NCBI GenBank assembly: GCA_002746115.1
Contig: NVXL01000028.1
Location: 1-44,908 of the forward strand
Direction: 5' to 3'
Length of the DNA stretch: 44,908 bases
Source of the DNA: Alteromonadaceae bacterium
GTDB lineage: Bacteria > Pseudomonadota > Gammaproteobacteria > Pseudomonadales > Cellvibrionaceae
Every line of letters begins with the position of its first letter. The stretch's first letter is position 1. This document shows, one piece after another, positions 31,449-44,908 of the stretch. Below the pieces are notes generated by a model, which was given only the letters and a program-made list of their open reading frames with translations, was not told the origin of the DNA and did not search any database. A program made the position numbers and the translations under genes.

Positions 31449-32000
31449 AATCTATGATATGTAGGTATGCACCTAGATGCGTTGAATTACGAAACTACCA
31501 TAAATGCCCTGAAGCAACTTAGGTGATTCATCTTAGTATAGCGGCTTTGCTCGCGAATAGTGAATTCTTGGTGTGATAAACATCAGGTCGCTATGATGAA
31601 TTATTAGCATGTTATGATATTACTGTGATACGCCATATTTTTTTGACGGAAAAACCTGCTTGGTTAAGTTTGACAAAGAAAGGTTTGATTAAAGAAAAAA
31701 GATGGGTATTCGATAGTGCTTCGACTTGACTTTCTTGCAGCGCTAAGCCTGCTCTGTGAGGAGTGCGTAAATTCGCTTCGGTGCTAATTGATTCGATGCT
31801 ATATTAAATAGGAGCTACTGCTGTCGCTTAAAAACACATACGGTATTTGAATTATAATTAAGCGTTGTAGAGTGTGCTTGTCCAAGACTCACAACATGTG
31901 CTTGGAGGTAATATGTAAGGCCGTTTAGCGTTGCGCTACCGTTAATAACTGAATGAGATACGATATCGGGATTGTGAATCGACTTACACAAAAGGGTCAA
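31449..32000. other. Divergent promoter region of the twin kinases
   Basis: 550 bases, AT-rich. A CRP-like half site (TGTGA with partly matching TCAGG, near 31572-31587) is the only regulatory hint. No ORF of substance is seen except an in-frame upstream extension of kinase B from ATG 31953. Confidence 0.35.
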
Positions 32001-35000
32001 ATGAAGCGCCCTAGGCAAAAGCTACTATTTAACAGCATGGCAGCAAAGGCATGGCAGATCTTTCTGTTGTCCCTCAGTGTTGCGCTCGTACTGCGATTTG
32101 TTCCAATTTCTGCGTATGCACTTGCTGATCAAACAAACCAAACAAACGCGCTTCGCTTTACTCACTTAAGAGATAAGCAGTTGGATTCTGTCGGGTTTCA
32201 GTGGGTGAGCCTTCAGGACGAGCAGGGATTTATGTGGTTTGGCGGCGAACACGGCTTGGTTCGCTATGATGCCTACAAATTTAAGCTCTATCAAAATGAC
32301 GCTGATAACCCCAATAGTTTAAGCGGTAACAACGTCTTTGCCCTAGAAGTAGACGCGCAGGGCAATATGTGGGTCGGAACTCTAAAAGGTGCCAACCGTT
32401 ATAACGCTGCAACCGATAGCTTTACGCGCTTTGTTCACAACCCTTCAGACCCTTCCAGTATCGGCGCTTCCGATATTTCCAACATACTTAAGGACAGCCG
32501 TGGTCACCTCTGGTTTGCCACCAACGGCGGCGGTTTGAATCGTTTTTTACCAAGTACGGAAGAGTTTGAGCGTGTCGAGTTGCGTGCCAATGGAAAAATC
32601 ATTGGCGGCGTCGCCAGTCTTATTGAAGATCGCCAAGGCAGCCTTTGGATGGCTTGCACCATTGACCAATGGAAAACCTTTGGTCTGTGCGTATTACCTC
32701 GCGCCAAATTCGGCGCGCTGAAAGCCGATGTGAGCTTTTACCCTTATGATACGGCAACGCTATTAAGTCTTGTGCATCGCGATCTCCAGGTTTATGAGGA
32801 CAGTGAGGGGCAACTTTGGGTTGCCGTAATGGGAGACGGACTTAGCCATTTTAATCGGGTGACAACGTCGTTTGTTCATTATCGTCATCAACCTCTGGTC
32901 AGTGAGAGTCTTGGGCATAACGAGGTTAATCATATCTTTGAAGATAGCCACCGTAACTTTTGGGTCGGCACTGACAAAGCCGGACTTAACCGCCTAAATC
33001 GCGACACTAAGCAGTTTGAGCACTTCTCGCACCGAGCTCGCGACCCCTATAGTGTGGCTAGCGATAAAATTCATTCTATTTATGAGAATCGCTTTGGTGA
33101 CCTTTGGCTGGGCTATTTCCCAGTGGGTTTGTCGATACGGAATAATTACGCAGGTGTGTTTCTTAATTATTGGAATCGTGATGATAGTGCCACCAGTTTG
33201 AGTGATAGCGCTGTGAACGCCATCGTCGAAACCGCAGAGGGGAACTTATGGGTAGGGACCGAAAAAGGGCTCAACCATATTAACCGCAGTAGCGGTGAGC
33301 TTACCCAGTATGTGCATGACCCGGCACAAGCGCTGAGCACAAGCGGTTTGACCGCTGACGCCGTGCTTTCCTTGTTAATCGATTCCGACGGTGTACTGTG
33401 GGTTGGTACATGGTTAGGTGGTCTGAGTCGGTTCAATCAATCCGAAGACGAAAATATCGGGACTTTCACGCATTTTGGGCCTCAGTTAAACCGTAGCGAC
33501 AGCTTAAATGATAGCGTAGTGTTAGGGCTTTTCGAGGATAGTGATAAGCGTTTGTGGATTGGCACCCGTAACGGCTTAAATCAATTTCAGCCAGAAACCT
33601 CGACGTTTTTACGTTACGAGCACGACGACTCGAATCCCGATAGTATTATGTCCGGTGAGATCTTGAGTATGTTCGAAGACAGCCGTGGTAATTTTTGGCT
33701 GGGCTCTGAGGCCGGGGTAGAGTTGATGGACCTTGAGCACGGTACATTCAAACATTACCAGCATAACAAAACCCCTCATAGCATTGACGAGGGTTACGTT
33801 AGCGCTATACACGAGGATAAAAAAGGTCGTTTATGGTTCGGTATTGTGGGCGCTGGACTTAATCTTTTTGATCCCGATACCGGCAAGGTTATTAAAAAAT
33901 ATCATCGCGAAGACGGTTTGCCCGATACTTCCGTAAAAAGTATTTTGGAAGATAATAGGGGTGGTTTGTGGTTGAGCACGGGTTATGGTTTGTCACACTT
34001 CCAGCCTGACACCGCGCTCTTTCGAAACTATACAGTGGATCATGGTTTAGCCGGAAATATCTATAATCACGCTGCATACCTCAAAACCAGCTCTGGCGAA
34101 TTGGCCTTCGGTAGCAGTGAGGGTTTAACTTTATTTAACCCAGAAAATATTTTTAAAAATAATGTAGTCCCCCCAATAGTTATTACTGATTTTCATCTTT
34201 TTCATAAGCCAGTTGAAGTTGGGGTGAAAAACTCTCCCTTACAGCAGTCTATTACCTACATGGCGAGATCGGCAGATAATGTACTCACCTTAAATCATGA
34301 GCAGTCCGTATTTTCATTCGAATTCGCTGCTTTAAACTACCAGCTTCCACACCTGAATCAATATGCTTATAAGCTTGATGGCTTTGATAAACAATGGGTT
34401 CAATCTGGCACCATACGCAGTGCGACCTATACCAACTTAGATCCCGGCGATTACGTATTTCGTGTTAAAGGCTCTAATAACGATGGTTTGTGGAACGAAC
34501 TCGGTACGGCAATTAACATTCGGATTATTCCGCCTTGGTGGCGTAGTTGGTGGGCGCTTTCGTTTTACATTTTAAGTTTGTTGTTGTTCTTCGGGCTGAT
34601 AATATATTCCTATATTCAGCGGAGACGGGCGAAAGTTGAACAGCGGGTTATCGAAAAATTACAGCATTTAGACCGAGTCAAAGACACCTTCCTCGCCAAC
34701 ACCTCGCACGAATTACGAACACCGCTTAACGGTATTATTGGTCTATCGGACTCGCTTATTGAAGGCGTCGCGGGGCCATTACCGCAAAATGCGCAAAACT
34801 ATTTACATATGATAGTGAATAGCAGTAAACGCCTATCTCACCTTATTAACGATATTTTAGACTTTACCAAATTAAAGCAAGAAACCATCAATCTTGACCT
34901 CAAAAATTTGGATCTATATAGCCAAGCGAGCATGGTGATGGGAATCGCCAATGGCTTGATTGGCGCCAAACCATTAGAGCTGTTCAATTATGTCGATCGG

Positions 35001-36959
35001 ACGCTACCCCCTGTGTTAGCCGACGATAATCGAGTCCAGCAGATATTGTACAACTTGGTTGGCAACGCAATTAAATTTACTGAAGAAGGTAAGGTCACAG
35101 TGTCGGCGACCTTAAGTGGGTCTTTTATGTGGGTTTCTGTCGCCGATACCGGTATTGGCATCGAACGGACCCAGAGAAAGAAAATATTTGATGCGTTTGA
35201 ACAAGCGGATAGCTCCGAAGAGAGGCGTTACAGCGGTACAGGTCTCGGTCTTGCTGTTACTAAACAACTGGTTGAGCTACATGGTGGTCAAATTAAAATG
35301 GATTCGACTATTGGTGAGGGCAGTGTTTTTCGTTTTAGTTTACCCTTGGCGAGTGCGGAGCCGTCTGTTAAACCGCAAGCCGGTTCGGGGCATACTGAAT
35401 ATTCGGACGACATCGGAAATATCGATAGTCGCGCAAACGCCCCTCATAATGCCTCTCATAATGAAAGTCTTCAACAAGCCGAATCGTTCAAACATGCACT
35501 TGGTCCTAGTCAAGAAATGGCAATCGCAGGAATCGACGGGGACATGCTTGCACAAACCGGCAATAAGGTGGTCGACAATGAGCACAAGCTACCTATTATG
35601 CTTGAGGCTGGTGGTGTCAGTGGTCAATTCCATATCTTGGTGGTAGATGATGAGCACGTTAATCGTCAGGTGTTGATAAATTTATTGTCTGTTAGGAATT
35701 ATCGTGTGTCGGAGTGCGAAAACGGAGTTGAAGCATTGGCGTTGATTAATAATGATAATTTTTATGGCAATACAAGCGTTAAAACTGAAGTCGACTTCGC
35801 TAATAAAATCGATTTAATTTTGCTTGATGTTATGATGCCTGGATTGTCTGGTTTCGAGGTGTGCCGACGAATTCGGGAAACATACACCTCAAGCGAATTA
35901 CCTATCCTATTTCTTACCGCTAAAACCCAAGTGGATGATTTAGCCAAAGGTTACGAAGTCGGTGCGAATGATTTTTTAAGCAAACCTGTTGAGAAAAAGG
36001 AGCTGTTCGCTCGTGTAAATAAAGAATTAAAATTACTGCACACCCATCGGCAGCTACACGAAAAACATGTAGAGTTAAAACATACGCAAACCCAGCTAAT
36101 ACACGCCGAGAAAATGACCGGCCTTAGCACACTCGTGGCGGGCATGGCACATGCGATTAATAACCCTACCAATATGGCTCTGGTAGGCGCTTATAATGTG
36201 GACAATAAAGTTAACCGTTTAAAAGAATACATGTTTGATTATATTGCTCAACAGGAGAGTCACGATGACGAGACCGCAAAACTATTTGAATCGTTATTTA
36301 ATGACCTATCGGCATCGTTAGGCGCTATTAACGAGGGTTCGAGGCGAATAAAGTCTTTAGTCGAAGGTTTTCGCTTGTTTTCTCACTTAAACGAAAGCGA
36401 CTATAGCGATGTTTGCCTAGCGGCTGATATTCAGTCATGTATTACAATATTGGAGGCAACTTACGGTGATACCGTCGAGTTCGTTTGTGATATACATGAC
36501 GACCCTAAAGTGAATGTGCAGGCAGGCCAGCTCAACCAAGTATTTGTTAACGTAATTCGCAATGCTTGTCAGGCCATTGCAGATAAACAGCAGTTACTTG
36601 CCCACGAAGCAGAGAAGAGCAAGCTTAATCTAGGTTATAAACCACATGACGATAAGATTAAGCTTCAGGTCAACACCGAGCCCTTGCCCAAAGGGCTGGT
36701 GTCGGTCCGCTTATATATCGATAGCGATAAGCTTAGTGAACTTGTTGTCTGCGTGAGCGATGACGGGGTTGGTATGCCCGATGAGGTTGTTGGGCGTATC
36801 TTCGAGCCGTTCTTCACAACCCGTGCAGTGGGCGAGGGCACGGGCTTAGGTATGGCCGTAGCTTTTGGTATCGTTGAGCAACACAAGGGGCGGGTTGAGA
36901 TAAGTTCCCGCCCAGGGGGCGGAACAAAGGTGTGGGTGCATTTACCACTTAAGCAGTAA
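32001..36959 (+). CDS. Giant hybrid sensor kinase B, paralogue of kinase A
   Basis: 1652 residues, with the same order as kinase A: signal segment (about 18-40), Reg_prop propellers (GNMWVGTLKGANRY and many more, to about 725), Y_Y_Y domain (about 760-845), membrane helix, HisKA (H about 903 in NTSHELRTPLNG), HATPase, receiver (ILVVDDEHVNRQ at about 1212, Asp about 1275 in LLDVMMPGLSG) and a second H-box GMAHAINNPTN (about 1383) with its HATPase (GTGLGMAVAFGIVEQHKG). A longer linker (about 1115-1205) separates the first HATPase and the receiver. ATG 32001 is preferred (AAAGGG close upstream); ATG 31953 would add 16 residues without a ribosome site. The aldose epimerase gene is convergent downstream. 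The target regulator is not in the window. Confidence 0.93.
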   Translation: MKRPRQKLLFNSMAAKAWQIFLLSLSVALVLRFVPISAYALADQTNQTNALRFTHLRDKQLDSVGFQWVSLQDEQGFMWFGGEHGLVRYDAYKFKLYQNDADNPNSLSGNNVFALEVDAQGNMWVGTLKGANRYNAATDSFTRFVHNPSDPSSIGASDISNILKDSRGHLWFATNGGGLNRFLPSTEEFERVELRANGKIIGGVASLIEDRQGSLWMACTIDQWKTFGLCVLPRAKFGALKADVSFYPYDTATLLSLVHRDLQVYEDSEGQLWVAVMGDGLSHFNRVTTSFVHYRHQPLVSESLGHNEVNHIFEDSHRNFWVGTDKAGLNRLNRDTKQFEHFSHRARDPYSVASDKIHSIYENRFGDLWLGYFPVGLSIRNNYAGVFLNYWNRDDSATSLSDSAVNAIVETAEGNLWVGTEKGLNHINRSSGELTQYVHDPAQALSTSGLTADAVLSLLIDSDGVLWVGTWLGGLSRFNQSEDENIGTFTHFGPQLNRSDSLNDSVVLGLFEDSDKRLWIGTRNGLNQFQPETSTFLRYEHDDSNPDSIMSGEILSMFEDSRGNFWLGSEAGVELMDLEHGTFKHYQHNKTPHSIDEGYVSAIHEDKKGRLWFGIVGAGLNLFDPDTGKVIKKYHREDGLPDTSVKSILEDNRGGLWLSTGYGLSHFQPDTALFRNYTVDHGLAGNIYNHAAYLKTSSGELAFGSSEGLTLFNPENIFKNNVVPPIVITDFHLFHKPVEVGVKNSPLQQSITYMARSADNVLTLNHEQSVFSFEFAALNYQLPHLNQYAYKLDGFDKQWVQSGTIRSATYTNLDPGDYVFRVKGSNNDGLWNELGTAINIRIIPPWWRSWWALSFYILSLLLFFGLIIYSYIQRRRAKVEQRVIEKLQHLDRVKDTFLANTSHELRTPLNGIIGLSDSLIEGVAGPLPQNAQNYLHMIVNSSKRLSHLINDILDFTKLKQETINLDLKNLDLYSQASMVMGIANGLIGAKPLELFNYVDRTLPPVLADDNRVQQILYNLVGNAIKFTEEGKVTVSATLSGSFMWVSVADTGIGIERTQRKKIFDAFEQADSSEERRYSGTGLGLAVTKQLVELHGGQIKMDSTIGEGSVFRFSLPLASAEPSVKPQAGSGHTEYSDDIGNIDSRANAPHNASHNESLQQAESFKHALGPSQEMAIAGIDGDMLAQTGNKVVDNEHKLPIMLEAGGVSGQFHILVVDDEHVNRQVLINLLSVRNYRVSECENGVEALALINNDNFYGNTSVKTEVDFANKIDLILLDVMMPGLSGFEVCRRIRETYTSSELPILFLTAKTQVDDLAKGYEVGANDFLSKPVEKKELFARVNKELKLLHTHRQLHEKHVELKHTQTQLIHAEKMTGLSTLVAGMAHAINNPTNMALVGAYNVDNKVNRLKEYMFDYIAQQESHDDETAKLFESLFNDLSASLGAINEGSRRIKSLVEGFRLFSHLNESDYSDVCLAADIQSCITILEATYGDTVEFVCDIHDDPKVNVQAGQLNQVFVNVIRNACQAIADKQQLLAHEAEKSKLNLGYKPHDDKIKLQVNTEPLPKGLVSVRLYIDSDKLSELVVCVSDDGVGMPDEVVGRIFEPFFTTRAVGEGTGLGMAVAFGIVEQHKGRVEISSRPGGGTKVWVHLPLKQ

Positions 36960-40875: not shown

Positions 40876-41184
40876 TTATTTTTGCGAAGAAAAGAATGCA
40901 GCAATATTTATCATATCTTGCTCAGATAATGCGGCAGCCATACCTTGCATAATCGGATCTTTACGCGCACCTGATTTAAAGTCTTTCAGTTGTTTTACAA
41001 GATAAGATTTCTTTTGCCCTGCAAGGTTTGGAAAGTTCTCACTGAGGCTAATGCCTGGCTTACCGCTGCCGCTGTGACACCCTGCGCAGCTCATTGCTTT
41101 GGCTTTGCCTGCATTGATATCTGCTGCCAGCGCATGTGTGCTCGCAATTAGAGTAACAATAGAAATAAGTATTAATTTTTTCAT
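40876..41184 (-). CDS. Small periplasmic c-type cytochrome (class I)
   Basis: A 102-residue exported monohaem cytochrome. The signal peptide is about 1-20 (LISIVTLIASTHALA). Haem attachment is by CAGCH (about 33-37), the probable axial Met is in DPIMQGMAAALS, and the C-terminal helix is DMINIAAFFSSQK. The pattern NLAGQKKSYLVKQLKDFKSGAR is that of cytochrome c553/c4-like electron shuttles. It lies 38 bases after the toroid-cytochrome fusion gene on the same strand, so it is likely the last gene of that operon and could exchange electrons with it. Confidence 0.93.
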   Translation of the reverse strand: MKKLILISIVTLIASTHALAADINAGKAKAMSCAGCHSGSGKPGISLSENFPNLAGQKKSYLVKQLKDFKSGARKDPIMQGMAAALSEQDMINIAAFFSSQK

Positions 41185-41222
41185 AATTAGTTCCTGCTAT
41201 CGCATGTTTTTGGTTTGTATGC

Positions 41223-43970
41223 TCATTGTGTTATTGACCAAGGTGCTGAACGCTTTACATTTTCCGTATCGTCAGCGTTTACCTTTGCAGGGTCAGCCAT
41301 CTTGTTTATATACTGGGTCGCAATACTTGCATCGATTGGTTTTTTTCCTTGATGCTTAATGTTATAGCGAGACAGGTAAAACCATATATCTTTAGCCTGA
41401 AAACCATCAATTACTTCACCATCTTGAGAGCGTTTATAATTGCCTTTAAACTCCTTACTTTGCACGTAGCTCACAACACGCTTGATCTCATCTTGAGTTA
41501 ATGTACCACCCACATGATCGCCATTGCCGACCCCAAAGGCGGGCATTGAGGCAATCGGGTTACCGGCATAAACAAATGCTTCCATCGCGGCGGCGGGGTA
41601 GCCCATCATTTTCTCTAGCGGCTTGCCGTCAATACCTTCTCCGTTTTGTCCGTGGCATAACATGCAATTAGCTTCAAAAATTTGTTTACCACTAAAGTTA
41701 TGCTGAGTTCCCAAGCCGACAGTTAAAGATTTTGATGGCGGTAAGGGAATCGTAGTTCCGTCGGTTCGGATCATGTCGGGCCGCTCTTTGATATCCGCAC
41801 TCACTGCATTACGTAAGCTAACTGTGGGTGCTTGTACTAATGATGGGTGGTCGGACAAATTAAAATTATTTCTAACCGTAACCAATTGATTAGCCTGATG
41901 GATGTCGCCTTTAATCGCTGAAAAGTCGGAGTTATTGTTAGCGGGAAAATTGTTATCGGAGCCGTTGTTTTCTGAGCTTTTGTTTTCGGATAAGTTAATC
42001 GCGACTTTAGCGGCCATCACCGGTGCAGCACCAAATTTACCATGAGCCTTGCTTACATAGGGAATGCCATCAGCATCGTCATCTCCTGTTCCGTATCCTG
42101 TAAAAACTTCTCCTGTCGATTGGTGTTCAGATAACAGCAAGCCACTTTGGTTGACGGTTTGTATCCACCAGCGTGTCATATGCTCGGCTTGATCTTCGAG
42201 TAGGTAGGCAGGCGTTGTGAACATAATCTCACGTAGTGCAGCCATGGTAATACCCACCGAGTAAGGCGTTACTATTGCAACATCACTATTTAGCTCACTG
42301 TGATAGGTGCCGTGGGCTACCGACCAGAAATTATTGTTGGCATAGTTATAGGCCTTACGGGCGGCCACTAAATAGCTGTCGTTTCGGCTTGAATAGTAAG
42401 CGGAAATTAAGGCTCTTATTGCCTCCCACTGGGAGGTAAGAACACCTTCTTGGCCGATTGCAAGACCTTCGGAGGTATAATCAGAGTTAAAACTACCTAT
42501 GCTACTTTGGGCCTTAACAAGAAAGTCGGCATTTTTAAGCAATAGAGTTTCAGATTTTTCGATTAAATCGGTATGGCGGCCTAAACTTTTCCAAGATTGC
42601 GCCATATCATTCACCGCAACCATCGTCATCGCCATATCTTTTAAACTAACAGTTGAACCCATGCCTTTTTTAGGGTGCCACTCGGACACCAAAATTCCCT
42701 TGTCGGTGTGCATAGAAAAAATATTTTTAAGAATGGCATTACCTAGAGATTCAGCAAGTAAACCCGTACGTTTCTCGATTAGGCCGCCATCAACGGGAGG
42801 ATTATCGGTGAAAAATGTATCACGTCGATTAGCCGCAATAGCAAAGGCCGAGGTGGCCCAGACCCAAGAAGCCTGATCCCACAATTGACTACTGGAATCT
42901 TTTATATCCATTGACCACACGCGCTCTGGAATATCGCCTACCCACAATAGATTAGGTTTTATTTCGTGAGGTAAATACTTAAAGCCATGGTCTGGGTTGT
43001 AGGCATCTGTATTCAGACCCAACAGATGCTTGCCGTCAGTAAACATCGAGGCTTTAACTTGTAGCATGGTGTTAATAGCGCTCATCGCCAGCCCCCAACC
43101 ACGCAAACCTTCTTCAGCATCATTGCCGAGCAGCGGCACTTCTTTATCTCGTGAAATATGAGTTGTGCCCGTATGAGTGGATTGAAAAAAGCGATCCATC
43201 CACTGTGAGCGGCGTTTTACAAATTGGCCCATCGCACCTAGATCAAGTGTTGTGTCCATTTTGTCGTGGTCAAAAACCTGAGCTTCGTTGGTTAAATACG
43301 TTGTAGGCACACCCCAGCCCCCATTTTTACCACTCATAGGATCGTTAAAACTATCGGTGTTATCCAACTTGCCCGTAAAAAATGGCTGTACTGATTTGTA
43401 TTGTAAGTACGTGGGCTGGATACCATCAAATACACGGGGGAAACCGGTGCGCTGATAGACAATGGGTAACTCAATACCGAGTAACACATCTTTATTCGAG
43501 AAATTACGCTCACCGCGATCACGTAACAAACGGTTAAATTGGCTGGCTTTATCCGCTTTCATGCTCAAGTATGGGCCGTGCACCATATGCACACCGGAGT
43601 GGCTACGACCGCCAATATAATCAAGTAAGTAACGTGCGTAAAAATACATTTCCCGAGCGGTCACCCACTGAAAGGCGCGTTTATAGGCGACAGGAAAGCT
43701 CGCCTTAACCATGTCATTATATCCCTCAATACCTGTTTTATAGCCTTCGTTGGCCATAAATGTAGCCTCATTGGTATAAAATCTACGGTCGATGACTTTG
43801 CTTTCTATGCTTGATCGATATTCGGAAAGATCCGGCTGAGAAAAACCGCCTTTAATTGCAACGCTACGATTATCTGGCGTTAAAATATAATTTTTGGCAT
43901 AACTTTGCATAACAACTGCAGAGGCAATTGTGATTGCCAAAGCTTTTATGAATAAACTTTTCTTTTTCAT
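41223..43970 (-). CDS. Secreted helical-toroid-like protein fused to a cytochrome c domain
   Basis: 915 residues from ATG 43970 (GGAA seven bases upstream; TTG 43982 would add four). The signal peptide is about 1-25 (ALAITIASAVVMQSYA). Residues about 60-650 are mainly helical with repeated Trp-rich hairpins, such as LWDQASWVWATSAFAIAAN and SQWEAIRALISAYYSSRND. This resembles (alpha/alpha)n toroid glycosidase-like folds, though no family could be named. An Asn/Ser-rich linker (about 665-695) leads to a monohaem cytochrome c: CMLCH (H about 772) and axial Met in SMPAFG (about 807). A further 80-residue tail has FYLSRYNIKHQGKKP. An Asp/Gly stretch (TGDDDADGIPY) may bind calcium. It lies 17 bases after an outer-membrane barrel gene and before a small cytochrome, so a redox enzyme or electron relay at the envelope is likely. 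Confidence 0.75.
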   Translation of the reverse strand: MKKKSLFIKALAITIASAVVMQSYAKNYILTPDNRSVAIKGGFSQPDLSEYRSSIESKVIDRRFYTNEATFMANEGYKTGIEGYNDMVKASFPVAYKRAFQWVTAREMYFYARYLLDYIGGRSHSGVHMVHGPYLSMKADKASQFNRLLRDRGERNFSNKDVLLGIELPIVYQRTGFPRVFDGIQPTYLQYKSVQPFFTGKLDNTDSFNDPMSGKNGGWGVPTTYLTNEAQVFDHDKMDTTLDLGAMGQFVKRRSQWMDRFFQSTHTGTTHISRDKEVPLLGNDAEEGLRGWGLAMSAINTMLQVKASMFTDGKHLLGLNTDAYNPDHGFKYLPHEIKPNLLWVGDIPERVWSMDIKDSSSQLWDQASWVWATSAFAIAANRRDTFFTDNPPVDGGLIEKRTGLLAESLGNAILKNIFSMHTDKGILVSEWHPKKGMGSTVSLKDMAMTMVAVNDMAQSWKSLGRHTDLIEKSETLLLKNADFLVKAQSSIGSFNSDYTSEGLAIGQEGVLTSQWEAIRALISAYYSSRNDSYLVAARKAYNYANNNFWSVAHGTYHSELNSDVAIVTPYSVGITMAALREIMFTTPAYLLEDQAEHMTRWWIQTVNQSGLLLSEHQSTGEVFTGYGTGDDDADGIPYVSKAHGKFGAAPVMAAKVAINLSENKSSENNGSDNNFPANNNSDFSAIKGDIHQANQLVTVRNNFNLSDHPSLVQAPTVSLRNAVSADIKERPDMIRTDGTTIPLPPSKSLTVGLGTQHNFSGKQIFEANCMLCHGQNGEGIDGKPLEKMMGYPAAAMEAFVYAGNPIASMPAFGVGNGDHVGGTLTQDEIKRVVSYVQSKEFKGNYKRSQDGEVIDGFQAKDIWFYLSRYNIKHQGKKPIDASIATQYINKMADPAKVNADDTENVKRSAPWSITQ

Positions 43971-43987
43971 GGTCAATTCCAATTCGG

Positions 43988-44908
43988 TTACAGTATGGTG
44001 CTTATAGAAAAACGGAAAACAGATTCAGGCGCGGGGCCTAGATCGGGCTCAATAACGCGAATCAGTGTTGACAGCGTTAAACGCAATTGTGGGTTGGGGC
44101 TAATTATTAGCGAGGGCGCAAAAAAACCGGTTAACCCCCCCGAAAAAGAAGGCCTATCATGAAGTTCAAACAAAAATGCTTGGTCACCGGGTGCGTTACA
44201 GTTGCTTACAAGCGCAACATCTGCTGCGGTACAGGTGTGAATTTCGGGTTCAGGGATTCGGCCTGCGTAGGAGTCTTTTTCTCGATCAAAGGCAATTAAA
44301 CTAAGATCCAGAGAAACAAAGTCTTTGTAGATAGGTTTTACATAGGATGCAAAATAAGTACTTAGATCTCCTGGATCAATCCCATCATCTGCTGAAACAA
44401 ATTTGTGGCTGAAGCCAAGGTGAAATGCAGAGCGCCCTAATATACTGTTGGCATCAAATTGACGTGTGCCAAATAAACCAAAAAGAAAACTAGTGGAACC
44501 TGTGCCTGATTGTAAAATAGAAGGCAGGCGACCGTCGTCGGAAAATCGACCAAAAACGCCATTATTAAATGGGAAATCACCTACATGTGAATTATTAAAG
44601 TTGGGGCCAGCTGGGTTACCATTTCTAGGCTCTGAGAAGGTAAGTACCCCCGGTATGGAGCCATCAGCGGCGCCTGCGGGAGCACTAAAGGCCGGAGCAT
44701 TGTTACATAGGCCTCGGTTATCTTCGTTAAAGTTTAAGAAAAAACAGCGTGGATCCCCCCAAACACCATCGGCCACATTTTGGCGTTGCAAGGCATCAAA
44801 GCCCTGTGCAACGGTTAGATTAGGTGCTGCCGGACGCGTTGCGCTGATGCGGCCGTTACTACCAAATGTTCCTTCATTACTGCCCGTGGGTAAAAACACG
44901 GCAACAGC
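43988..44908 (-). CDS. Outer-membrane beta-barrel-like protein, N-terminus cut by window edge
   Basis: At least 306 residues; the frame is open at the window end, so the true start lies outside. The visible part starts AVAVFLPTGSNEG, recalling the LPTG strand of transporter-type barrels of the MetA/phenol-degradation class. It continues with Gly/Phe/Asn-rich loops and alternating hydrophobic strands (SYVKPIYKDFVSLDLSLIAFD, GGLTGFFAPSLIISPN, LRLTLSTLIRVI) and ends in a C-terminal strand VFRFSISTIL. Five Cys, some in pairs, occur in loops. It is probably the first visible gene of the cytochrome operon. Barrel topology is inferred from strand pattern only; the family is uncertain. Confidence 0.55.
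   Translation of the reverse strand, partial: AVAVFLPTGSNEGTFGSNGRISATRPAAPNLTVAQGFDALQRQNVADGVWGDPRCFFLNFNEDNRGLCNNAPAFSAPAGAADGSIPGVLTFSEPRNGNPAGPNFNNSHVGDFPFNNGVFGRFSDDGRLPSILQSGTGSTSFLFGLFGTRQFDANSILGRSAFHLGFSHKFVSADDGIDPGDLSTYFASYVKPIYKDFVSLDLSLIAFDREKDSYAGRIPEPEIHTCTAADVALVSNCNAPGDQAFLFELHDRPSFSGGLTGFFAPSLIISPNPQLRLTLSTLIRVIEPDLGPAPESVFRFSISTIL

Follow-up and report, generated by a model that had tools for sequence, protein, structure and literature searches.

A conserved gene pair encoding a probable outer-membrane barrel and a toroid–cytochrome c fusion, a candidate envelope redox module

Described systems closest to the locus

FTR1-type permeases pair with a periplasmic protein which binds or oxidises iron, including EfeO/EfeB, P19 and Fet3p (excerpts of PMC9174327), and the eighth gene of the P19 cluster encodes a cytochrome or a hypothetical protein in some bacteria (excerpts of PMC6083913). 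Cbp2D of Cellvibrio japonicus carries CjX183, a small c-type cytochrome domain which is joined to other domains and can reduce an LPMO, according to excerpts of PMC8981238. In porin-cytochrome conduits (Mtr/Pcc and Geobacter Ext, with a wider set described in excerpts of PMC6148476) the cytochromes form multihaem chains, and the ExtKL cluster of Geobacter includes a porin-like protein and cytochromes (excerpts of PMC5877670). GlcNAc/cellobiose 2-epimerases (PF07221) and the GH76 and GH105 enzymes are (alpha/alpha)6 toroids.

We compared these systems to a locus in which a probable outer-membrane barrel gene is directly followed by a gene encoding a large toroid-like domain fused to a cytochrome c. 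It lies within a stretch of 44,908 nucleotides, called the window here, from Alteromonadaceae bacterium GCA_002746115.1 (contig NVXL01000028.1, positions 1–44,908), and window numbering is used for coordinates. The C-terminal half of the large domain aligns with the PF07221 epimerases and its best structural matches are found among these enzymes and the GH76 and GH105 toroids; however, compared with the PF07221 family the window toroid has Asp in place of an invariant His, approximately 350 residues before the aligned part, and cytochrome partners. As in EfeUOB, FtrABCD and P19-FTR1, 12 unfused relatives of the toroid are encoded with an FTR1 permease, together with a membrane protein that could carry electrons, but no EfeO, cupredoxin or P19 model was found by Pfam among the neighbours at the one such locus searched (L107), and in the fusion loci, which have no FTR1, electrons would go to the cytochrome. 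The locus resembles Cbp2D in that a small c-type cytochrome domain is joined to another domain, whereas here that domain is a toroid, the gene is paired with a barrel and no LPMO link was seen (the comparison being with excerpts of PMC8981238). A probable barrel and a c-type cytochrome are encoded together, as in the conduits, and a partner of one relative resembles ExtKL below the cut-off; in contrast to the multihaem conduits the fusion and a neighbouring small cytochrome have a single CxxCH each, the barrel belongs to no matched family and a large toroid domain is present. The preliminary description of this DNA knew of no system with such a layout, and we likewise found no open PubMed Central paper whose title or abstract describes a barrel with a toroid–cytochrome fusion.

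Gene layout and conservation of the pair

Three minus-strand genes lie at the end of the window; with the large gene read from its ATG, they are 17 and 38 bases apart, as had been described. They encode the probable barrel (43988–44908, the C-terminal 306 residues), the toroid–cytochrome c fusion (41223–43970) and a small class I cytochrome c of 102 aa (40876–41184). The large gene may start at the ATG at 43970 (915 aa), as in the preliminary description, or at a TTG at 43982 (919 aa). The complete barrel gene encodes 514 aa and extends to L011 10533 (window-equivalent 45532), beyond the window end, on a contig which extends to 48392; 16 scattered single ambiguous bases were found in this gene just past the window end (L011 9910–10435), and the window ends one base short of the first of these. 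The upstream sequence, suggested earlier as a place to look for more operon members, showed none among genes of at least 100 aa, the next of which is a divergent JmjC/cupin gene. Promoter-like sites were as frequent as in shuffled sequence (14 vs 13.0) and terminator-like sites slightly more frequent (9 vs 5.9, sd 2.3). An aldose 1-epimerase gene lies 3 kb from the fusion locus, and positions 31953–36959 of the window encode a 1668-aa protein which, by eye, resembles a large hybrid sensor kinase whose sensor region is periplasmic.

The barrel gene was found directly upstream of the fusion gene, at a distance of 16–30 bases, in 5/5 fusion loci. Full-length fusion orthologues with 64–73% identity occur in Shewanella hanedai, an uncultured Saccharophagus and Pseudocolwellia agarivorans, listed in the tree under Shewanellaceae, Cellvibrionaceae (the family of the window and of Cellvibrio) and Colwelliaceae, respectively, and a fifth locus (G845, 73% identical) came from the family search. 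When frames of at least 100 aa in the flanks of the five loci were compared, only the barrel and the fusion recurred in every locus. A kinase pair and a LysR-like pair were each shared by two loci, the remaining matches were frames antisense to the barrel, and no carbohydrate gene was common to the five loci. The small cytochrome, proposed earlier as the third member of the system, was present at 1 of the 5 loci, and tblastn gave no match in the other 4. The three-gene operon was therefore dropped: it is the third gene alone that lacks a conserved association, and the linkage of barrel and fusion stands.

One copy of the barrel was present in each of the 5 fusion genomes and none in the 4 unfused-toroid genomes tested alongside. 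In the family of G838, 2 of 147 genomes have the barrel, and these same 2 carry the fusion. Searches for the fusion or toroid matched 1/369 genomes of the class and 1/398 of the phylum, in each case the window's own genome, and 32/394 genomes of the order of G838; where 10/97 genomes matched, 7 were left out because the match was to the cytochrome domain only. No relative was found in the viral contigs and phages searched. The S. hanedai fusion is 87% identical to that of G845 and 68% identical to that of P. agarivorans, with G845 and P. agarivorans drawn as one family. The closer identity of the G845 fusion to that of S. hanedai than to that of P. agarivorans, together with the isolated conservation of the pair, suggests that the pair may have been transferred horizontally.

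Two repeat structures were seen beside the pair. In G845 three direct repeats of 75–100 bases, 93–95% identical and approximately 9 kb apart, flank the pair (L032 4116–4383 and 13140–13504) and are possibly the trace of a mobile or duplicated element, and in S. hanedai a 16-base unit is repeated in a long tandem array just downstream of the fusion gene (L012 12840–13405).

The fusion protein begins with a likely signal peptide (MKKKSLFI...QSYA, 43896–43970, read by eye), followed by the large conserved domain (42000–43892), a linker (41694–41999) and a class I cytochrome c domain (41457–41693), all on the minus strand. The Asn-rich stretch reported in the linker is real and is itself longer here than in the relatives, as the 3 other rows of the orthologue alignment lack 11–15 of its residues. 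Pfam places the cytochrome c at the C-terminus, residues 764–842 of 919, where Cytochrom_C (33.2 bits) and Cytochrome_CBB3 (32.9 bits) both score above the cut-off. The protein contains one CxxCH and has no Cys outside it, and this motif is invariant across the 4 rows of the fusion alignment, as is a Met (ASMP) which is a candidate sixth ligand. The small cytochrome scores 32.9 bits against Cytochrom_C (PF00034; cut-off 21.3), so that both proteins qualify as class I cytochromes c by this model. It is 43% identical over 77 aa to half of a dihaem cytochrome near the toroid of G066, and would be accessory at most.

An outer-membrane barrel, as had been proposed, is plausible rather than proven for the upstream protein. 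Pfam gave no match near a cut-off, and a sequence comparison with the PDB gave none at E 10. A weak match was found to a Sulfurimonas protein (26% over 138 aa, E 6e-3) which itself scores above the Pfam Phenol_MetA_deg cut-off. The excess of amphipathic strands, by a home-made score, was z 2.4, 2.4 and 1.5 in three barrel orthologues compared with −0.7 to 1.2 in three controls, a weak barrel signal. The AlphaFold model, from 4 alignment rows, was poor (mean pLDDT 28.0), and no CxxCH was found in the four barrels checked.

The toroid domain and its unfused relatives

Neither Pfam nor NCBIfam has a dedicated model for the large domain, and no NCBIfam model scored above its cut-off. We compared its C-terminal half to a profile of ten GlcNAc 2-epimerases using hhalign and obtained a probability of 92% (E 5.6e-7, 192 columns); a control of the toroid against the propeller alignment gave 1% (E 0.05). 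Scores for PF07221 itself (cut-off 23.4) were 13.6–15.0 bits for the window toroid, 19.1 for L012 and 16.9 for L032. Only the Saccharophagus toroid (L013) exceeded the cut-off, by 0.1 (23.5 bits), the other scored toroids being below it or unmatched (no match at E 0.1 in L014, L017, L023, L030, L031 and L107), so membership of a known enzyme family with an established pathway is not clear. Among 11 toroids compared with Pfam at E ≤ 0.1, C5-epim_C matched 6 and GlcNAc_2-epim 4.

Structure prediction and fold search, which had been suggested for this domain, gave models too poor for the active site and matches which lend weak support to the toroid family. The AlphaFold model of the fusion, from 4 alignment rows, had a mean pLDDT of 31.9 and was usable only around residues 361–547. 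With this poor model, Foldseek matched 6f04 (E 5.4e-4) and VIA matched 3vw5 with Z 16.3 (rmsd 4.1, 256 aligned), against a helical background near 14; fold matches to epimerases, GH76 and GH105 were all above but near that background. The description of the domain as toroid-like is supported for the C-terminal half only. In the consensus lines of one hhalign alignment, the His of the epimerase EPGH motif, invariant in 10 epimerase rows, aligns to Asp, and Asp occupies this position in 41/42 toroids. Because of these profile and fold matches and the replacement of the epimerase His, the domain is probably a toroid, with sequence pointing to a chemistry that is probably other than epimerisation.

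The 42 toroid domains collected comprise 5 fused and 37 unfused members, including all 31 unfused matches from the order of G838 and two (L015, L016) of the seven plasmid records matched. It should be noted that the genome counts are not independent: 11 of 12 FTR1 toroids share an identity of at least 92%, and 19 toroids without neighbours of the types described below are 84–99% identical. Fused and unfused toroids split with full support in an 11-member tree and share an identity of only 22–28%, though 70 columns are conserved in at least 41/42 toroids. Four near-invariant His are among these columns, which is no striking excess given 17 His in 631 residues. No redox cofactor site was found in the toroid, and Cys is absent from all 42; a Cys-based or Cys-Trp cofactor was dropped for this reason.

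We also examined the gene neighbours of the 37 unfused toroids and found a propeller c-type cytochrome with 18, a gene for a cytochrome-b-like membrane protein with 17 and FTR1 with 12. The label "b-like" rests on helices and His read by eye; Pfam gave no significant match, with one sub-threshold hit to Cytochrom_B561 (E 0.022). In one context (G066, G462, G894, G956 and L101) the toroid gene is followed by the b-like gene and then by the propeller protein, which is split across two frames in L101 and has six CxxCH in each of G894 and G956. On an Anoxybacillus plasmid the propeller protein comes immediately after the toroid, is above the Pfam Cytochrom_C cut-off and shares 32% identity with the G066 protein over 536 aa. 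On this Bacillota plasmid (L016 9737–13835) the toroid has a lipoprotein-like start, and the propeller cytochrome beside it resembles, below the cut-offs, the models for hydrazine synthase beta-gamma, MbnH and MauG; a hydrazine-synthase-like role was set aside, since the NCBIfam matches of the Anoxybacillus propeller were far below the model cut-offs. Propeller-type proteins also occur without a toroid: 9 of the 147 genomes of the G838 family match the propeller alignment, 2 of which have the toroid, and the other 7 match part of the alignment.

The second context, with FTR1, was found at 12 loci of two lineages (11 loci with toroids at least 92% alike, and L094 at 72%), in the order toroid, b-like gene, FTR1. 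The gap between b-like gene and FTR1 was 1–4 bases, or the called frames overlapped, in 11/12 loci and was 46 bases in L094. FTR1 scored 161.8 bits by Pfam in L107, and the other 11 were identified by tblastn against the L107 protein (62–96%). In all 12 loci a single open frame approximately 5 kb past the toroid encodes a propeller protein with 6 CxxCH and 57–70% identity to that of G894. At the two loci which were read (L094 and L107), FTR1 is followed by a flavin amine-oxidase-like gene, a gene of 202–218 aa and a membrane protein gene. The conserved run of toroid, b-like protein, FTR1, amine-oxidase-like flavoprotein, small secreted-looking protein, membrane protein and six-CxxCH propeller protein (L107 5944–13955, and L119–L130) is a candidate iron-redox operon. 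With tblastn no FTR1 was found at the five fusion loci, at L101 or at five further propeller loci.

The remaining 19/37 unfused toroids, Aeromonas-like and 84–99% alike, had no b-like, FTR1, propeller or dihaem gene (mostly within 6 kb on each side) and no secreted-looking CxxCH protein in the stretches searched, and extending the flanks of five of these loci by approximately 11 kb in both directions added nothing. Not every toroid, then, has a haem partner within the stretches covered. At three of these loci, which were read, a small lipoprotein-like gene adjoins the toroid, and two have a glgC-like gene on the other side; an Aeromonas plasmid record names glgC. Two Aeromonas caviae plasmids (NZ_AP026376.1 and NZ_AP024941.1) carry only an 11% fragment of the toroid gene, and L015 has the whole gene near insertion sequences.

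Proposed mechanism, alternatives and significance

We favour, with a probability of roughly 0.55, a reading in which the barrel and the toroid–cytochrome fusion form a two-gene envelope redox module, the toroid passing electrons to its own cytochrome. The barrel would admit a small substrate or metal ion across the outer membrane, the secreted toroid would bind and oxidise it in the periplasm, and an electron would be handed to the cytochrome c domain tethered at the toroid's own C-terminus, then to soluble periplasmic cytochromes (possibly the adjoining small cytochrome) and a terminal oxidase. In the relatives the toroid is a separate protein, and its electron partner would be the propeller protein with c-type haem motifs encoded alongside, usually with the b-like membrane protein and in one group with the FTR1 iron permease. 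The toroid is fused to (n = 5) or encoded with (n = 18) a c-type cytochrome in 23/42 cases, a gene context which argues that it exchanges electrons with c-type haem. If so, the substrate would enter through the barrel and electrons would leave through the tethered cytochrome. The six-CxxCH propeller protein found in all 12 FTR1 loci raises our confidence in the redox module. The envelope redox system of the preliminary description is supported for the barrel and the fusion and not for the small cytochrome as a member.

The carbohydrate-like or phenolic substrate first proposed is weakened by the lack of any other shared flank gene, by the Asp in place of the epimerase His and by FTR1 at 12/37 unfused loci. 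We would guess iron before sugars or phenols, because no functional clue to the substrate was seen other than the neighbouring FTR1 genes. An iron or metal system in the stricter sense, in which a putative periplasmic iron-binding oxidase or reductase toroid works with FTR1 in one group, and the cytochrome of the window takes the electron and the barrel imports metal for iron acquisition or metal oxidation, is possible though on balance doubtful. It fits the FTR1 and b-like genes directly after the toroid with the six-CxxCH propeller in the same run (12/37 unfused), the periplasmic partners of known FTR1 permeases, by analogy with which the toroid could be the iron-binding or iron-oxidising partner, and the cytochrome encoded in some P19 clusters. 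However, FTR1 comes from two lineages only and is absent at five fusion and six propeller loci, and the gene run also holds flavin amine-oxidase-like and membrane protein genes without a known iron role. We consider it rather unlikely that the whole toroid family is a new periplasmic metal-redox class, that is, a sugar-enzyme ring turned iron or metal oxidase or reductase with propeller cytochromes, a b-like carrier and, in one group, FTR1 as partners, which in the window lineage has become a single polypeptide with its own cytochrome and a dedicated outer-membrane channel.

The fold and sequence relatives of the toroid are mostly sugar enzymes, the Saccharophagus toroid just passes the GlcNAc 2-epimerase cut-off, an aldose 1-epimerase gene is nearby and CjX183 offers a precedent for reducing an LPMO; a toroid which oxidises or binds a polysaccharide-derived sugar or uronate, its cytochrome carrying electrons or activating a secreted oxidase such as an LPMO, would accommodate these points. 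We nevertheless regard this as improbable, given the Asp aligned to the epimerase His, the relatives encoded with propeller cytochromes and FTR1, the five loci without a common carbohydrate gene and a window protein in which no carbohydrate-binding or other CAZyme model scored above its cut-off. It is very improbable that the tethered cytochrome and the barrel form a small conduit or shuttle which reduces an outside acceptor, the toroid serving for docking or structure: Geobacter ExtKL, whose cluster has a porin-like protein and cytochromes, is similar to the C-terminal part of the G066 propeller (NCBIfam E 1.4e-15, 56.8 bits vs a cut-off of 250), but a fusion with a single CxxCH and four barrels lacking the motif compare poorly with the multihaem chains of known conduits, and the 70 near-invariant columns exceed the needs of a spacer.

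The toroid family described here, which lacks a dedicated database model and occurs both in Pseudomonadota and on a plasmid of Bacillota, meets c-type cytochromes in differing layouts, either fused to one or beside a propeller cytochrome, and its two-gene form, carried by some marine bacteria, is small enough for direct testing. If the toroid is the redox partner of FTR1, it would represent a new solution to the coupling of bacterial electron transfer with iron transport, and if it oxidises organic substrates, a fold familiar from sugar chemistry would here serve a redox function.
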